Below, piece after piece: positions 8,534-39,727 of a DNA stretch of 51,459 nt; the stretch's first letter is position 1; the number at the start of each line of letters is the position of its first letter. The notes beneath the pieces were generated by a model. The model searched no databases. It worked only from the letters and a program-made list of their open reading frames with translations, and had not been told where the DNA came from. The stretch is taken from NCBI GenBank assembly GCA_017439425.1, contig JAFSJE010000053.1, positions 1 through 51,459 on the forward strand. Reading direction: 5' to 3'. The DNA comes from Oscillospiraceae bacterium (lineage in GTDB: Bacteria > Bacillota > Clostridia > Oscillospirales > Oscillospiraceae). Made by a program: the position numbers and the translations under genes.

Positions 8534-9964
8534 TTACGGCTTAAAATAAAACAGTAACTCGTTGGAAGGCTTGGAAAACACAATCTTATCAACTATTGTT
8601 GATAAGGCTTCATTCTTTACTGCGCCGGTTACATCTGGTGACTTAAGTATATCAAGTACGCTCTTAACCTTATCTGCGTAAGCGTCGGCGTCAAAAGCGA
8701 CAGTGGAAGAAGCTGACATTTTGCTTTCTTCGAGCTTTGAAATAGTCTCCTCGATTCCTGCCTTAATATTCTTATATTCATCAGGCGTAAATGCTCCGTT
8801 CAGAAGCGCTTCACGGGCACGATCAAGCTTCGCCTTTTCTGAAGCTATAAGTTTATCCCAGTCGCGGTTAATGCTGCCTTTACGCGGGGCCTTCGGTGCT
8901 ATCTTAAAAGCCTTTGTTTTTACGACATCTTCAAGGTATTCAATCACCGCTTTATCAGCTTTTCGGATAGAAATATAGTGCGACGTCTTACACGATCCGT
9001 TTACATAGCGATAACACTGCAAGCTGTTTTGTACGGTTTGCCTTACGAGCGTGCTCCCGCAGTCATCGCATCTGATAAGACCTTTAAGCATATATACGTC
9101 ATGTTCCTTACGTACATACTTCGGCTCAGCTCTCTCTGCGATGCGCTTCTGTACGGCTTCCCAGGTAGCAAGATCGATAATCGGCTCGTGTTTTCCGTCG
9201 ACCAGCATGACATTATCTCCGTTATAATCAGCTCGGCTATAGTTTGCGTGGCCGTCAGTAGACCAGCGAATCTTTCCGATGTAAACGGGATTAGTCAATA
9301 TGTACCTTACCGTGTAGTCAGAAAAAACACCGCCACGGACGCCTTTAAGTCCTTTGGCACTGAGCGCCTGCACTATTTCCCTGCGGTTAAGGCCCGAAAG
9401 ATAAGACTGATAAATAAAACGTACTGTATCGGCGTTTTCGTCCGGTACAAATTTTTTGTCCTTAACGGTGTAGCCGAGAGGGGCGCCTCCCATTGCTTCG
9501 CCTCTTGTGGCTTTCTCGGTCATACCACGGCGGACCTCTCCGGCGAGGTTTATGAGGTAGTATTCGTCCATCCACTCAATAATACGCTCAATAAGCGAGG
9601 AAAAAGGGGAGTCAGTCGATGGCTCGGATATGCTCCGGACAGAGATCCCGCGCTTTGAGAGGAGGTTTTTATACATGATCGCCTCTTCCTGGTTGCGGGC
9701 GAAGCGGCTGTACTTCCACACAAAAATAGCTTCAAAGGGAGCGGGAGTCTCCTTTGCAGTGGCGATCATCAGCCGGAACGCCGGGCGCTTCTCGGCCGAC
9801 TTGCCGGAGATGCCGTCCTCCTCGCGGAAGATGTACTCGTCCGGTATGATGTAGCCGTCGCGCTTCGCGTGCTCCCGGATGATCTTCAGCTGAGAGTCGG
9901 GAGAGTATTCAAGCTGATCGTCGGTCGAGACGCGGACGTAAGCAGCCGCAATTTTGAGTTCCAT
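8534..9964 (-). CDS. Large serine recombinase (phage integrase)
   Basis: This 476-residue protein has an N-terminal resolvase domain beginning AAYVRVSTDDQ with the catalytic Ser at residue 13 and KYSRFARN downstream. A recombinase domain follows (GGAPLGYTVKDK, FIYQSYLSG, IVQALSAKGLKG, YILTNPVYIGK). Next come a zinc ribbon (LIRCDDCGSTL and a later Cys) and a C-terminal coiled coil around residues 370-430. It would integrate and excise the prophage at attL/attR. Its stop lies next to attL. Its first 42 codons are duplicated at 10832-10958. Confidence 0.97.
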   Translation of the reverse strand: MELKIAAAYVRVSTDDQLEYSPDSQLKIIREHAKRDGYIIPDEYIFREEDGISGKSAEKRPAFRLMIATAKETPAPFEAIFVWKYSRFARNQEEAIMYKNLLSKRGISVRSISEPSTDSPFSSLIERIIEWMDEYYLINLAGEVRRGMTEKATRGEAMGGAPLGYTVKDKKFVPDENADTVRFIYQSYLSGLNRREIVQALSAKGLKGVRGGVFSDYTVRYILTNPVYIGKIRWSTDGHANYSRADYNGDNVMLVDGKHEPIIDLATWEAVQKRIAERAEPKYVRKEHDVYMLKGLIRCDDCGSTLVRQTVQNSLQCYRYVNGSCKTSHYISIRKADKAVIEYLEDVVKTKAFKIAPKAPRKGSINRDWDKLIASEKAKLDRAREALLNGAFTPDEYKNIKAGIEETISKLEESKMSASSTVAFDADAYADKVKSVLDILKSPDVTGAVKNEALSTIVDKIVFSKPSNELLFYFKP

Positions 9965-10008
9965 AGGTTCACCTGCCTTTTGCGTTGTATTTGGGAGATA
10001 ACCCGAGG

Positions 10009-10506
10009 TTATTTTTTAGGAGTATAGTTGGGGTCGTATCTTTTTGATGCTCGCTCAAGCTTTTTGAAATCACAGCAGATTTTGCAGAAGAATGAATCAG
10101 GCTGAGAATTGACAGCCTTATAGTATGTTTTGCTCGCCTTGATTCGTATTGCGGTTTCGTTGCTTCGTATAAAAGCTAACTGATTAATCAGAAGATTTCG
10201 ATATGCGGAATCTTTCTCTAAGTCGATGTTATATGGAACAAGTGCTGAATCCGGTACCGGCAACATATTATTAAATCCGAGAATTCCATATTCACCGTTT
10301 GCTATTGGCATAAAATGAACGCTCGATTTGAGATTTTTATGGTTTGGTTTTGGAGATTCCATAGGTACAAAATACTTGAATGCGCCGACCTCAAGAACAA
10401 CTCCGACATAAGGACGGCGCTGACCTTTATTCAATTGAACGCGATTGTCACAGTGATATAAAAAAGAAACATATTTTTCGGATATGCGATATATTTTTAA
10501 GCTCAT
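10009..10506 (-). CDS. toxN: ToxN/AbiQ-family endoribonuclease, toxin of a type III toxin-antitoxin system
   Basis: This 165-residue protein has the ToxN/AbiQ/CptN layout: KIYRISEKYVSFL at the N-terminus, RPYVGVVLEVGAFKYFVPMESPK with the S-P-K active-site block at about residues 51-53, NNMLPVPDSALV, LLINQLAFI and FCKICCDFKKLE near the C-terminus. Members cut mRNA and their own antitoxin RNA, and many abort phage infection. The start has an AGGAG site 6 bases upstream. Three repeats and a terminator lie directly upstream, as in all known type III loci. The gene is visibly richer in A and T than the recombinase gene. A hairpin ATAACC/GGTTAT with T on the plus side overlaps its stop. Confidence 0.92.
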   Translation of the reverse strand: MSLKIYRISEKYVSFLYHCDNRVQLNKGQRRPYVGVVLEVGAFKYFVPMESPKPNHKNLKSSVHFMPIANGEYGILGFNNMLPVPDSALVPYNIDLEKDSAYRNLLINQLAFIRSNETAIRIKASKTYYKAVNSQPDSFFCKICCDFKKLERASKRYDPNYTPKK

Positions 10507-10524
10507 ATCTATCTCCTGATAATA

Positions 10525-10558
10525 AAATGGCGGGAATAGGCTTGCGACCTACTCCCGC
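10525..10558 (-). terminator. Leaky terminator between the ToxI repeats and toxN
   Basis: On the minus strand CGGGAGTAGG (10557-10548) pairs with CCTATTCCCG (10540-10531) with one G-U pair, followed by the interrupted T tract ATTTTATT. Known type III loci have such a terminator so that antitoxin RNA is made in excess and only some transcripts reach the toxin gene. Confidence 0.8.
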
Positions 10559-10675
10559 TTTTTGATTCCCACTTGACGGCAGGGACTTTCCGCTTTTTTA
10601 GCTTCCCGACTTTACGGCTCGGGTTTTCCGCTTTTTTAGCTCCCCATTTAACGGAAGGGGCTCTCCGCTTTAGAA
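10556..10675 (-). ncRNA. toxI: ToxI antitoxin RNA: three tandem repeats of 35-38 nt
   Basis: Units lie at 10665-10629, 10628-10591 and 10590-10556 in transcript order, with a partial start at 10675-10666. Each unit begins or ends with a conserved AAAAAGCGG and has a central CCGTnAA. The stem arms differ but still pair: CCCC/GGGG in the first, CCCGA/TCGGG in the second, TCCC/GGGA in the third. Compensating changes of this kind are strong evidence of RNA structure. The A-rich block is the likely ToxN processing site. The RNA should form pseudoknotted antitoxin units that inhibit ToxN. Confidence 0.88.
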
Positions 10676-10686
10676 AGGAGGTGAAT

Positions 10687-10779
10687 ATGACAACTCAAGT
10701 TGTTTTTTCACCTTTCGCGGATCTCTCCGCACAATTATTATACCACCGGAGAACGGAAAAATGCAAGCGCAAGATGTAG
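10687..10779 (+). CDS. Possible 30-residue peptide, antisense to the ToxI promoter
   Basis: An ATG with a very good ribosome site (AAAGGAGG, 10673-10680) opens a 30-codon frame beginning MTTQVVFSPFADLSAQLLYH and ending in a Lys/Arg-rich tail. The ToxI -10 lies within it on the other strand. No promoter on the plus strand is obvious. It may be chance, since the ribosome site is also the complement of the RNA leader. Confidence 0.3.
   Translation: MTTQVVFSPFADLSAQLLYHRRTEKCKRKM
10737..10766 (-). promoter_or_regulatory. Promoter of the toxI-toxN module
   Basis: On the minus strand TTGCAT (10766-10761) and a perfect TATAAT (10742-10737) are separated by 18 bases. Transcription would start near 10730 and read the ToxI repeats. 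The leader contains the palindrome ACAACTTGAGTTGT (10702-10689), extended by AGGTGAA/TTCACCT, a possible operator or leader hairpin. Confidence 0.75.
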
Positions 10780-10812: not shown

Positions 10813-10956
10813 CTAAACCTGTGAGAACAGTTCCGGTATGACATAGCCGTCGCGCTTCGCGTGCTCCCGGATGATCTTCAGCTGAGAGTCGGGGGAGTAT
10901 TCGAGCTGATCGTCGGTCGAGACGCGGACGTAAGCTGCAGCAATTTTGAGTGTCAT
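10813..10956 (-). pseudogene. Truncated recombinase, first 42 codons only
   Basis: This 47-codon frame starts MTLKIAAAYVRVSTDDQ, matches the full recombinase for 42 codons, then reads five unrelated residues to a TAG. It keeps its own GGAGG site, which follows the stop of the nuclease gene. The catalytic Ser is present but most of the domain is lost, so no recombinase activity is expected. It marks the old junction between the nuclease gene and the integrase gene before the toxIN module arrived. Confidence 0.85.
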
Positions 10957-10958
10957 AG
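10832..10958. repeat. 126-bp direct repeat of the recombinase 5' end
   Basis: Bases 10833-10958 match 9841-9966 at 118 of 126 positions by direct reading, with no gaps. The copies flank the toxN/toxI module. Two of the changes fall at codon 2 and the others are mostly silent. Confidence 0.9.
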
Positions 10959-10981
10959 ATTAAGAACCTCCAATAAACGAG

Positions 10982-11938
10982 CTATGACTTCGCGACGCAA
11001 GATTGTTCCCACATACTTCTGATTATAGAACCGTCCCATAATAACACGCCAGTAGCTTCCGCGAGCTCTTTAGCTCCTTTGGTGAAAGTACTATTAGTCA
11101 TAACCACACCGACATGACAATGATAAAACACTTTACCGGCGTTAACTTCTTGAATAGGGGTGTTGCCAAGCGGAGAAGAATAGCACTTACATTGTATTGC
11201 GTATTTTATTGAATCCTTAACGGCGGTTATATCAACGCCTTGATCTCCGCTTGCGACAGTAGTACAAACATCTTCAAACCCGCTATCTCGGAGAAGAGAA
11301 ACGCACCAGTTTTCAAATTCTAAACCGGTCATTAAAGAAAAATCGGTGAGAGCAAGACAAGAATCTGAAGCAGTATTAGCGTTGCTTGACTTATGCGAAG
11401 ATTTGTATTGAAAATACAAAGGGTAGAACTGTTCCCGCGTTATTAGAATTCGACGGGGAGTTGAATTTTCAAAAGGTCCCACAGCACCTATAGTTTCTAA
11501 TTCATCTATTAGCCTAGCAGTTTCCGCAAAACCCAACTTAAGCTTGCGCTGCAAAAGTGAAACAGAAGCGTTGTTGGTAGAGAACACAATATCAGCAGCA
11601 GCAACAATGGGATCACTCGGGTCACCAAGATATATAGATTCTGTATTATTATGTACTACATTTTTTGGAGTTGGCTTCATGCCTTGCGAAAGTGATTTGA
11701 ACTTCTTAATAATTATAAAATCATGTTGCCATATGATTGCTACGAGTAACGGGACTATTGCAATAATTGGCGATCCCCATTCAGGTAAAATAATTACATC
11801 ATCGTTGCTTTGAGAAAACGGAAGCAAAATAATCAAAACAACTAAACCTGAAATAAACCAGACCAATACGCGCGTTAAACATCCTACTTTTTTGGAGCTA
11901 GGCTCGTCAAGTGATTTCTTATAATTATCTTTGCTCAT
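10982..11938 (-). CDS. Membrane-anchored FtsK-gamma/Mrr-type nuclease
   Basis: This 318-residue protein has two N-terminal membrane segments (about 22-41 and 54-70). Next comes a winged-helix segment like the FtsK gamma domain (about 108-170: VSLLQRKLKLGFAETARLID, GAVGP), then an Mrr-type restriction endonuclease fold (about 200-310). Candidate catalytic residues are E207 or E209 (GLEFENW), D236 in GDQGVDI, the Q249-C-K251 motif and Q263. Such proteins cut foreign or modified DNA. Here the nuclease would face the cytoplasm at the membrane. It follows the ImmA-like gene by 14 bases in the repressor operon and is A/T-rich. Defence or superinfection exclusion is my inference. Confidence 0.8.
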   Translation of the reverse strand: MSKDNYKKSLDEPSSKKVGCLTRVLVWFISGLVVLIILLPFSQSNDDVIILPEWGSPIIAIVPLLVAIIWQHDFIIIKKFKSLSQGMKPTPKNVVHNNTESIYLGDPSDPIVAAADIVFSTNNASVSLLQRKLKLGFAETARLIDELETIGAVGPFENSTPRRILITREQFYPLYFQYKSSHKSSNANTASDSCLALTDFSLMTGLEFENWCVSLLRDSGFEDVCTTVASGDQGVDITAVKDSIKYAIQCKCYSSPLGNTPIQEVNAGKVFYHCHVGVVMTNSTFTKGAKELAEATGVLLWDGSIIRSMWEQSCVAKS

Positions 11939-11952
11939 ATATTAATAAAACC

Positions 11953-12351
11953 TCAAAAACTATATCCACACGGGCCGAGATAGTATGCTATAGCTTTGCG
12001 CATAAAATCCTCGGTAACGCCGAAGCGCTCGGCAAGCTCACACGGCTCAGTGTATCCACTATGCACATCGCTCGCGAGATCAGACCAAGGGACGGCAATT
12101 TGATATGATTTTCTGTTAGCTCTGCACTCGCTGAGCGCACGAAGACTGCAAGAAGTATCACGACTATAAAATGCGCCGGTCTCAACATGCGCTATTTCGT
12201 GTACGGCTCTTGTGCGTTCTTCTGCACTGCCGAAGGTTAGTGAAGTGTCCAGACAAACGCAGTTAGATAAAGCAATCGACTTACATTGAGGAATGTTATC
12301 ATAATAAATATCAATGCCACGATTCTCGGCATACTCAAAGTAATCTATCAA
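11953..12351 (-). CDS. ImmA/IrrE-family metallopeptidase
   Basis: This 132-residue protein has the zinc motif HEIAH at residues 51-55 and a downstream Glu in ALSECRANR near residue 74, the expected third ligand, plus the helical tail ELAERFGVTEDFMRKAIAYY. The family cleaves cognate XRE repressors to switch on mobile elements, as in ICEBs1. It overlaps the repressor gene by 4 bases, which supports a repressor-antirepressor pair. Confidence 0.9.
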   Translation of the reverse strand: MIDYFEYAENRGIDIYYDNIPQCKSIALSNCVCLDTSLTFGSAEERTRAVHEIAHVETGAFYSRDTSCSLRALSECRANRKSYQIAVPWSDLASDVHSGYTEPCELAERFGVTEDFMRKAIAYYLGPCGYSF

Positions 12352-12695
12352 TTCTTCTTTTCGCGCTCGCGCATCTGAACATACTTAGCGAAGCGTTTAA
12401 CCTCCTCAAACATTTCATCGGTGATTTCGCCGTCACCGTCAAAAAGTGCAAATTTGATATCTTCATCAGTAACGCCTTCACCGGATACGGTGGGGGTGTT
12501 TTTGTTATCGGCAAGAAGATCCTCAACAGAGACGTTAAAGTAATCTGCAACTTTCTGCAATGTAGCTTGACGAGGAATAGTACCTTGACTCCAACGAGTA
12601 ACAGTAGATTTTTCAATGCCGATGTCTATAGCCGCTGCTGACGGAGAAATATTCTTGCTATTGCATAGACGCAAATAGTTTTGATAGAAACCCAC
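12348..12695 (-). CDS. XRE-family repressor (ImmR/CI-like)
   Basis: This 115-residue protein has an N-terminal helix-turn-helix (about 5-62: NISPSAAAIDIGIEKSTVTR, then IPRQATLQKVADYFNVSVEDLL) and an acidic C-terminal helix-rich tail. It is transcribed leftward from a promoter at 12874-12902 and probably binds the five operators at 12712-12903, holding the lytic promoter off and controlling its own. The ImmA-like protein is its likely protease. Confidence 0.9.
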   Translation of the reverse strand: MGFYQNYLRLCNSKNISPSAAAIDIGIEKSTVTRWSQGTIPRQATLQKVADYFNVSVEDLLADNKNTPTVSGEGVTDEDIKFALFDGDGEITDEMFEEVKRFAKYVQMREREKKN

Positions 12696-37544: not shown

Positions 37545-38354
37545 ATGAAATATTTAGGGAAAATCACAGACGAAAAAGACCTCATATCGAGAGAGTTCAG
37601 CGACCACTACGGTGAGTGTACGACGGGCGCATCTACTCAAGCGAAGGTCGTAACGATACCGAGTCTCACGGAGCTTTATGAGGGCTTGCATATCTACGTC
37701 AAGTTTACGACAAATCAGACCTACAACGGCGCGCCGACACTGAATGTCAATTCTCTCGGCGCGAAAAACATTAGGCGCACGGGCGGAGCAAACGCTGCAA
37801 GATACGAGTGGGTCGCAAATCAAATACTTCACCTTATTTACGACGGCACGTATTGGGTAATAGTTGACGGCGGATTTGCAACCACAACATATTATGGCAA
37901 GACGAAGCTCTATACCGGAGCGGCTTCGACCTCTACGGCTTATGCGCTCACTCCGTCATCTCTCAACAGCTTCGCCGAGAACGTAGTCAGCGGTTATTCG
38001 GCGTATTCTACTTCGGCAACCTATGCCGTGGGCGACAGGGTGAGATACTCCGTCAGAGTTTATGAGTGCATCACTGCCATACCCGACGGCGAGGCTTGGA
38101 CGGCGGCGCACTGGAAAGAGGTTGACGATTTACAAACGCAGCTCAACAACAAGATAAAGCCGAACCCCACGCTTGAGGGAACCGAGGCGGCGCTGACGGG
38201 CGTTGAGATAGACGGCGTGAAGTACAAAATCGAGGGCGGTGGCGGAAGCGGTCTGCCGGACGTTACTGCTTCCGATAACGGCAAGGTTCTTACAGTAGTA
38301 AACGGAGCTTGGGCGGCGGCAAGTCTGCCGATATATGATGGGAGCGTGACGTGA
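37545..38354 (+). CDS. Tail fibre protein with a CBM5/12-like module
   Basis: This 269-residue protein has an N-terminal fibre domain (TLNVNSLGAKNIRRTGGANA) and near residues 150-195 a short aromatic module (YSTSATYAVGDRVRYSVRVY, then ECITAIPDG and AWTAAHWKEV). The spacing matches CBM5/12 carbohydrate-binding modules. The leader at 37474-37544 has GC-rich repeats of GTGCTCC and an AGGAG site. Confidence 0.75.
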   Translation: MKYLGKITDEKDLISREFSDHYGECTTGASTQAKVVTIPSLTELYEGLHIYVKFTTNQTYNGAPTLNVNSLGAKNIRRTGGANAARYEWVANQILHLIYDGTYWVIVDGGFATTTYYGKTKLYTGAASTSTAYALTPSSLNSFAENVVSGYSAYSTSATYAVGDRVRYSVRVYECITAIPDGEAWTAAHWKEVDDLQTQLNNKIKPNPTLEGTEAALTGVEIDGVKYKIEGGGGSGLPDVTASDNGKVLTVVNGAWAAASLPIYDGSVT

Positions 38355-39727
38355 TGGCGAACAATTTGACAGTAAGCTATAAAGGCAATACGATCCATAC
38401 CGCGTCGGCTTCCGGCTCTGCTACGCTCAACACTGAGGGGAAGTATATGGAGGACGACGTCAGCCTCAGCTATACGTTTGATGGCGGAGGCAGCGGCAGT
38501 GCAGGCTTCAGTGATGTTAATTTCTACGACTACGACGGCACAATAGTACAGAGCTATTCCGCCTCTGATTTTGCAAGCCTTTCGGCTATGCCGGACAATC
38601 CCACTCATAGCGGCTTAACGGCTCAGGGGTGGAACTGGTCGCTTGCAGACGCCAAAGCCTACGTCGCAAGCTATGGCAAGCTCAACATTGGTCAGATGTA
38701 CGTCACGTCCGACGGCAAGACGCGTATCTACATCCATCTGGAGGAAGGGCGGCTTGCTCCGTATCTCGGAATTGCCATCAACGGCACAGCTACGGTAGAT
38801 TGGGGCGACGGTACGACGAGTACCGTGACGGGAAGCAGCACCAGCACCGTCGTCAATACGCAGCACAGCTACGCGACGGCGGGGAATTACGTCATTGCAA
38901 TAGCCGTGAGCGGAAGCATGGCGTTGGTTGGAAACACGTCCTACGGTTCACAGGTGCTGTGGAAAAACAGCACAACCGGAAGTTTGAATCGAGCATATCA
39001 AAATGCAATCCAAAAGGTGGAAATCGGTTTCAACACGAGTATCGGGAGCACTGCGTTTGGCATCTGCTACTCCCTCGCATCTGTGACCATCCCAAGCGGC
39101 GTGACGAGTATCGGGGACTATGCGTTCGGCCTTTGCAACTCCCTCGCCTCGGTAACCATCCCAAGCACCGTGACGAGTATAGGAAACAATGCGTTCTATA
39201 GCTGCTACTCCCTCGCCTCGGTAACCATCCCAAGCGGCGTAACGAATATCGGCGCTAATGCGTTCCAAAACTGCTACTCCCTCGCATCTGTGACCATCCC
39301 AAGCACCGTGACGAGTATCAGCAGCTATGCGTTCTATAGCTGCAACTCCCTCGCCTCGGTAACCATCCCAAGCACCGTGACGAGTATAGGAAACAATGCG
39401 TTCGGCACCTGCCACTCGCTTAGCTCAGTAGTGATACCGAGTGGTGTAACGAGCATTGACGGCTATGCGTTCAGCACCTGCCACTCGCTTAGCTCAGTAG
39501 TGATACCGGATAGCGTGACGAGCATTGGCGGCTATGCGTTCAACAACTGCTACGGACTCGGCTTTATCAAATTTACTCGCACGACACCGCCGACAGTATC
39601 AAACAGCAACGCGTGGACGAATATCCCCACCGACTGTATTATTTATGTTCCGAGCGGTACTTTGTCTGCGTACACAAGCGCGACAAACTACCCGAGCAGC
39701 AGTACATACACCTACGTCGAATATTAA
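38354..39727 (+). CDS. Receptor-binding protein with BspA-like leucine-rich repeats
   Basis: This 457-residue protein starts in the overlap with the previous stop. It has a short N-terminal attachment domain, a PKD-like sandwich (ATVDWGDGTTSTV, HSYATAGNYVIAIAVSG), then seven full LRR_5 repeats of 23 residues (pattern LASVTIPSGVTSIGxYAF), a half repeat before them, and a capping end (FTRTTPPTVSNSNAWTNIPT). BspA-type repeats are known from bacterial surface adhesins. Here they probably touch the host surface. Confidence 0.85.
   Translation: MANNLTVSYKGNTIHTASASGSATLNTEGKYMEDDVSLSYTFDGGGSGSAGFSDVNFYDYDGTIVQSYSASDFASLSAMPDNPTHSGLTAQGWNWSLADAKAYVASYGKLNIGQMYVTSDGKTRIYIHLEEGRLAPYLGIAINGTATVDWGDGTTSTVTGSSTSTVVNTQHSYATAGNYVIAIAVSGSMALVGNTSYGSQVLWKNSTTGSLNRAYQNAIQKVEIGFNTSIGSTAFGICYSLASVTIPSGVTSIGDYAFGLCNSLASVTIPSTVTSIGNNAFYSCYSLASVTIPSGVTNIGANAFQNCYSLASVTIPSTVTSISSYAFYSCNSLASVTIPSTVTSIGNNAFGTCHSLSSVVIPSGVTSIDGYAFSTCHSLSSVVIPDSVTSIGGYAFNNCYGLGFIKFTRTTPPTVSNSNAWTNIPTDCIIYVPSGTLSAYTSATNYPSSSTYTYVEY
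39069..39560. repeat. 69-bp tandem repeats in the receptor-binding gene
   Basis: Seven units of 69 bases encode the leucine-rich repeats. Some segments are identical over more than 50 bases (for example from about 39147 and again from about 39354), which gives room for slippage and unit gain or loss. Confidence 0.85.

Follow-up and report, generated by a model that had tools for sequence, protein, structure and literature searches.

The closest described relatives of the module reported here are the ToxIN systems, for which a model of antitoxin processing and toxin inhibition has been published (PMC5772629, PMC5086642; statements about published work refer throughout to the portions of the papers that were accessible to us). 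The toxin is described as cleaving A-rich linkers and as touching the overhangs and pseudoknot ends of its RNA partner ToxI, an H-type pseudoknot (PMC8860590). The P. atrosepticum and E. coli systems (2xd0, 7d8o) are each described by a single consensus repeat, AbiQ/antiQ from Lactococcus and ToxIN from B. thuringiensis by 2.8-2.9 repeats of 34-35 nt (PMC5086642), and CptIN (4rmo) and TenpIN combine type III logic with a pseudoknot antitoxin.

Here we analyze a 51,459-nt stretch of DNA from an Oscillospiraceae bacterium (the window) that contains a type III ToxIN module, as judged by the sequence of the toxin, of the array and of the terminator. The number and length of its ToxI units, three of 35-38 nt, are like those of antiQ and B. 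thuringiensis ToxI, and its logic and pseudoknot antitoxin are held in common with CptIN and TenpIN. Assignment to CptIN itself was considered and rejected, since a CptN-type toxin and 45-nt units would be expected and the toxin of the window is nearer to ToxN. In contrast to the P. atrosepticum and E. coli antitoxins, the three units of the window differ from one another. ToxIN is already known; the variant described here is an array of pseudoknots that keeps its shape and not its letters and that, in a second toxin clade (clade B), also keeps a fixed order.

The toxIN module and its prophage setting

A preliminary description of the window had proposed a ToxN-like toxin, a terminator, three 35-38-nt units and a promoter, and the coordinates and order that it gave were all correct, the promoter being putative (Table 1).

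Table 1. Features of the toxIN module and of the surrounding prophage; positions refer to the window.
Feature	Position	Strand	Description	Basis
Large serine recombinase / phage integrase	8534..9964	-	adjoins toxN	Pfam Resolvase, Recombinase, Zn_ribbon_recom
Direct repeat of the integrase 5' end	9840-9969 and 10832-10961		130 nt, 93% identity; flanks toxIN	
toxN	10009..10506	-	165 aa, ToxN/AbiQ-family endoribonuclease toxin	profile, sequence, predicted fold
Terminator hairpin between toxI and toxN	10530..10558	-	12 pairs; -21.5 kcal/mol, z -6.7; weak T tract (CATTTTATTA)	
ToxI unit 3	10559..10593	-	35 nt; S1 GCGG/CCGT, S2 TCCC/GGGA	
ToxI unit 2	10594..10631	-	38 nt; S1 GCGG/CCGT, S2 CCCGA/TCGGG	
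ToxI unit 1	10632..10668	-	37 nt; S1 GCGG/CCGT, S2 CCCC/GGGG	
5' leader	10679..10731	-	two hairpins, 10731-10716 and 10713-10679; -20.7 kcal/mol, z -5.2	
Probable promoter	10737..10766	-	weak -35 TTGCAT, 18 nt, extended -10 TGGTATAAT (TG-G-TATAAT at 10745-10737)	sequence
Mrr-type restriction endonuclease domain and FtsK-gamma-like DNA-binding domain	10982-11938	-	beside toxIN	
Helix-turn-helix, repressor-like gene	12348-12695		other side of toxIN from the integrase	
Terminase, portal, prohead protease, head, tape-measure and endolysin genes	21.6-42 kb			
Prophage ORF with tandem repeats	38351-39727		69-bp repeats (23 codons) at 39035-39550	

The toxin gene is open from start to end and matches profile PF13958 with 155.7 bits (cut-off 25). 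The closest solved toxins are AbiQ (4glk, E 4.6e-18) and B. thuringiensis ToxN (4ato, E 6.6e-22), to which the window's ToxN is 28-30% identical. The predicted fold is likewise that of ToxN among the entries ranked by Foldseek and compared with VIA-align, a set in which the absence of other folds carries no weight. Of the active-site residues known from E. coli ToxN, the protein by alignment keeps Ser53, Lys55, Tyr110 and Gln117 and has Arg31 at the site of Lys33. It differs from the E. coli toxin at the Thr52 and Trp57 sites, which are occupied by Glu50 and Asn55; the glutamate is present in 9/9 aligned proteins of the clade. The E. coli mutants Thr52Val and Trp57Phe have lost their toxicity (PMC8860590), and the two substitutions weigh against an active toxin. 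AbiQ has, by alignment, a leucine at the Thr52 site, and a glutamate at this position therefore need not abolish activity.

Read 5' to 3', each unit has GCGG followed by a purine-rich loop and a first variable arm; CCGT and an A-rich loop come next, then a second arm complementary to the first, and finally a 3' tail with a terminal A-run. In all three units stem S1 forms between GCGG and CCGT and stem S2 between the two variable arms, and because the two helices interlock each unit is predicted to be an H-type pseudoknot rather than a hairpin, the pseudoknot being the ToxI fold known from publications. The changing arms that the preliminary description listed are indeed present, but it took GCGG and CCGT for constant blocks and overlooked that they form S1. 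A search for chains of H-type pseudoknots scores 26.6 over the array, against a maximum of 19.4 in 2,000 dinucleotide shuffles; nested folding around the units, with a program that is blind to pseudoknots, gives little beyond shuffles (z -0.4 to -1.6). TRF scores the array at 108 with published settings (2,7,7,50) and at 120 with looser ones.

The 5' arm of the terminator hairpin begins with GCGG, as would that of a fourth unit. The leader at the other end of the array perhaps contributes to RNA stability, and 17 of 19 leaders in the window's toxin clade fold at z <= -2.2, the exceptions being L013 and L095. By eye, two plain hairpins lie between promoter and unit 1 in 14 of the 19 loci examined (the window, L002-L005, L008, L010, L015, L024, L098, L100, L104, L105 and L108), and the leader stems differ between loci yet stay paired. 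Several clade B arrays, unlike these leader-bearing ones, begin nearly at the -10. The extended -10 upstream of the window's units has a similar box upstream of several relatives; a consensus promoter scan did not report it.

That the module resides in a lysogen, as had been proposed, is borne out by the phage packaging, head, tail and lysis genes of the window. The interval between integrase and repressor-like gene is a usual site for lysogenic-conversion genes. A serine recombinase is also found after toxN in L002, L098/L099 and L100, and ahead of the array in L105/L107. The copies of the integrase 5' end that flank toxIN suggest, at the level of sequence, that the module entered by recombination at the integrase gene. 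Together with the neighboring Mrr-type gene, toxIN possibly forms a small prophage defense island.

Pairing of S2 in the window's toxin clade

We collected ToxN loci from genomes in overlapping samples (20 of the 400 searched, 21 of 394, 37 of 391, 4 of 34, 10 of 249, 70 of 191 and 2 of 51), together with 2 from named genome contigs. Viral contigs yielded no relative when scanned with a single protein, but 21 loci when scanned with profiles. In a tblastn search 191 records from plasmids and 2 from phages matched at less than 60% identity; these lie outside the array comparisons. On the toxin tree the relatives of the window form one clade (clade A; 9 rows, support 98/86), and the toxins of seven of its members are 54-60% identical to that of the window.

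The preliminary description held that the window's three units show selection on RNA shape. From these units alone the claim lacks statistical support, since the observed pairing is reached by 3,304/20,000 permutations, so that covariation is not significant, and four of the six possible arm swaps likewise give full pairing if the 3' arm is allowed to slide; it stands when the units of the relatives are considered. Because a MAFFT alignment of 24 units, without inner gaps, misplaces the 3' arms, we compared the pairing of each unit's own S2 arms with that of swapped arms. In eight arrays including the window (24 units, 12 different 5' arms), own arms were fully paired in 23/24 units and swapped arms in 155/552 combinations, and 0/20,000 permutations reached the observed mean, both overall and within arrays. 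Leaving out the window gave 20/21 for own and 103/420 for swapped arms (0/20,000 permutations). Nine additional arrays from viral contigs behaved in the same way, with 26/27 own and 252/702 swapped arms fully paired (0/20,000 permutations overall, 2/20,000 within arrays). We conclude from these comparisons of sequences that S2 covaries and that selection on RNA shape is evident from the relatives.

Compensatory change is also found between the units of one array: 16/20 clade A arrays carry at least one S2 double change, the four without being L100, L101, L103 and L106. Mean unit identity is below 0.85 in 16 of the 20 arrays, and L101 and L106 are homogeneous. L101 and L103 are almost identical loci with three and two near-identical units, respectively, which reflects either natural repeat loss or assembly collapse. 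Single S2 pairs are broken in unit 2 of L003 and unit 2 of L108.

S1, the A-rich overhangs and the spacing are nearly fixed across clade A. In L013 and L106, S1 has become GAGG/CCTT, a C-G to A-T change that retains pairing. The outer G-U pair of S1 is lost in four units (unit 1 of L004, L008 and L010, GCGG/CCGA; unit 2 of L098, CCGG) and an inner pair in unit 2 of L095 (ACGC). This distribution differs from that described for E. coli ToxI, in which the pseudoknot core is conserved and the overhangs vary between clusters (PMC8860590), whereas in clade A overhangs and S1 are near-constant and S2 varies. Since S1 and overhangs are nearly fixed and S2 is free save for pairing, the clade A toxin seems to read the former two.

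Probable drift under a pairing constraint and competing readings

We think it very probable that the locus is a prophage ToxIN, likely an abortive-infection module, whose S2 stems drift under a pairing constraint. The toxin family and fold, the gene order, the pairing and covariation of S2 and the conservation of S1 and overhangs are observations; processing, ring formation, neutralization, phage defense and drift as the cause of the divergence are what we infer. We envision a scenario in which a single transcript carries the structured leader and the three ToxI units and extends into toxN by read-through of the terminator. ToxN would cleave the A-runs between the units, each of which would fold to a pseudoknot, and three units and three toxins would form a 3:3 ring. 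The terminator would hold the toxin below its antitoxin, and take-over of the cell by a phage would release it. In clade A, S2 would need only to pair, and compensatory changes could set the units apart, perhaps aided by the avoidance of repeat loss.

Repeat loss could itself be the driving force. Slippage or recombination would delete identical tandem repeats, and divergence may have been selected because unlike units hold their number at three. We regard this as possible but somewhat unlikely. Two of 15 groups of near-identical toxN genes with an array vary in unit number by eye (L101/L103 and L060/L061), both have near-identical units, and 19/20 clade A arrays have three units. However, only two cases are involved, in one of which the loci compared are viral metagenome contigs where an assembler may have merged repeats, and other homogeneous arrays (L046 and its kin, L118/L121, L119 and its kin, and L070/L086) are unchanged in number.

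A different form of selection would make the units non-equivalent, each position being a distinct pseudoknot with a role of its own in affinity, in the order of assembly or on one side of the ring. We judge this unlikely, and the two clades bear on it differently. The preliminary description suggested that the units may be unequal in toxin binding, and the conservation of particular positions in some relatives makes it reasonable to ask whether they are. Within clade A, the sequences give a weak position-specific signal. Among the ten arrays of the window's sub-clade, units at the same position are more alike than others by a small excess (0.772 vs 0.735) that 0/5,000 shuffles reach, but the native order is best in just 18/45 pairs. 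The first eight arrays, L013 included, give 10/28, and their units resemble sister units of the same array more closely (0.770) than units at the corresponding position of other arrays (0.754). Unit 2 of the window resembles unit 1 of other arrays, and the unit order of the window is only loosely that of its relatives. The case is better in sub-clade A2 (L015, L024, L104, L105 and L108), where the third loop of unit 1 is longer and the native order is best in 10/10 pairs (2/5,000 shuffles). In homogeneous arrays position-specific order is absent (2,288/5,000 shuffles).

Clade B (15 rows on the toxin tree, support 95/92), which is more extreme than clade A, also speaks for non-equivalent units. 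A pseudoknot-chain search that used no motif anchors found the S2 arms TCTCA, TCTTG and TCGC in this order in 14/15 loci, the exception being L054, which is without the middle unit. This order is kept though ToxN identity, 56-96% across the genomes compared, drops to 56%. The units of the 12 measured arrays are only 0.54-0.62 identical to one another. With units cut by unit motifs, identity is 0.82 at the same position compared with 0.58 within arrays, and the native order is best in 91/91 genome pairs. The order recurs in the viral contigs L093, L109, L110, L111 and L112 and in the genome locus L142. L113 and L114 carry units 1 and 3 together with a further unit that resembles unit 1, and L074 carries units 1 and 3 alone, so that L054 and L074 have two unit types each. 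Arrays such as these, in which a position is missing or a unit-1-like unit occurs twice, and the homogeneous L101 and L106 of clade A speak against distinct roles; likeness at the same position is also explicable by descent without homogenization. That one transcript in these ToxIN clades would yield an ordered ring of three non-interchangeable RNAs and three toxins seems to us doubtful. If true, such an ordered hetero-ring would mean that type III antitoxins can consist of specialized RNAs instead of a repeat.

The stem that changes in clade B seems to be S1. In unit 2 it has changed in step across 19 arrays of this clade, with five arm pairs (own arms paired in 19/19, swapped in 165/342; 0/20,000 permutations). 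S1 of unit 3 is less clear (14/19 and 172/342; 128/20,000), and S1 of unit 1 covaries hardly at all (1,099/20,000). Clades A and B thus seem to free opposite stems, since A leaves S2 free, whereas B holds S2 constant and varies S1 of unit 2. Such arm changes give a clue to the stem that the toxin recognizes, and the contrast between the clades makes the rules of recognition between toxin and RNA directly testable. They also raise the question of whether a phage mimic of the RNA must copy its letters or its shape alone.

A decaying ToxI in a module that is dead or losing its function is very improbable: the differences between the units, the unusual residues at the Thr52 and Trp57 sites and the duplicated integrase fragment that frames toxIN would fit decay, but the toxN frame is uninterrupted, the three S2 stems pair, and the same design is kept in relatives whose toxins are 40-46% different.

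Divergent arrays and the detection of type III systems

The preliminary description also stated that known ToxI repeats are usually near identical. This holds for many other ToxN loci: of the 49 outside clades A and B with enough upstream sequence, 33 gave a TRF hit at the published setting, 26 of them with more than 85% matches. Divergent arrays such as those of clades A and B are not rare, however, and compensatory S2 differences within a single array can be read elsewhere as well, for example in L028, L035, L042, L047, L063 and L071. Criteria for type III systems require a tandem array (PMC5086642); repeats were recognized by hand and then verified by TRF at 2,7,7,50 in one study (PMC8860590), and the same setting served as a filter in another (PMC12804078). 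At this setting TRF missed 4/10 clade A loci and returned a match for 0/16 clade B loci, all 16 of which were missed. Such surveys may therefore overlook part of the type III systems.

Rfam, searched with the window and 19 other ToxN loci, gave no antitoxin match; nothing in the window reached the gathering threshold, and the 20 loci together gave just one 5S rRNA and two tRNAs. With E values of 0.22 to 8.3, five weak Rfam matches near the array concern unrelated leaders or small RNAs; they lie far under the cut-offs and were set aside. In the accessible portions of the literature searched, which included PMC5086642, PMC8860590, PMC4627078, PMC5772629 and PMC12804078 and did not cover the primary 2012 type III survey, we found no description of compensatory differences between the units of one array.

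Among the other ToxN-family genes, no ToxI array is visible upstream of L128, L131, L133-L137 and L140. Genomes G1437 and G1506 have 8 and 12 ToxN matches, respectively, and the units of L077 and L082 seem to bear an additional hairpin within the third pseudoknot loop.
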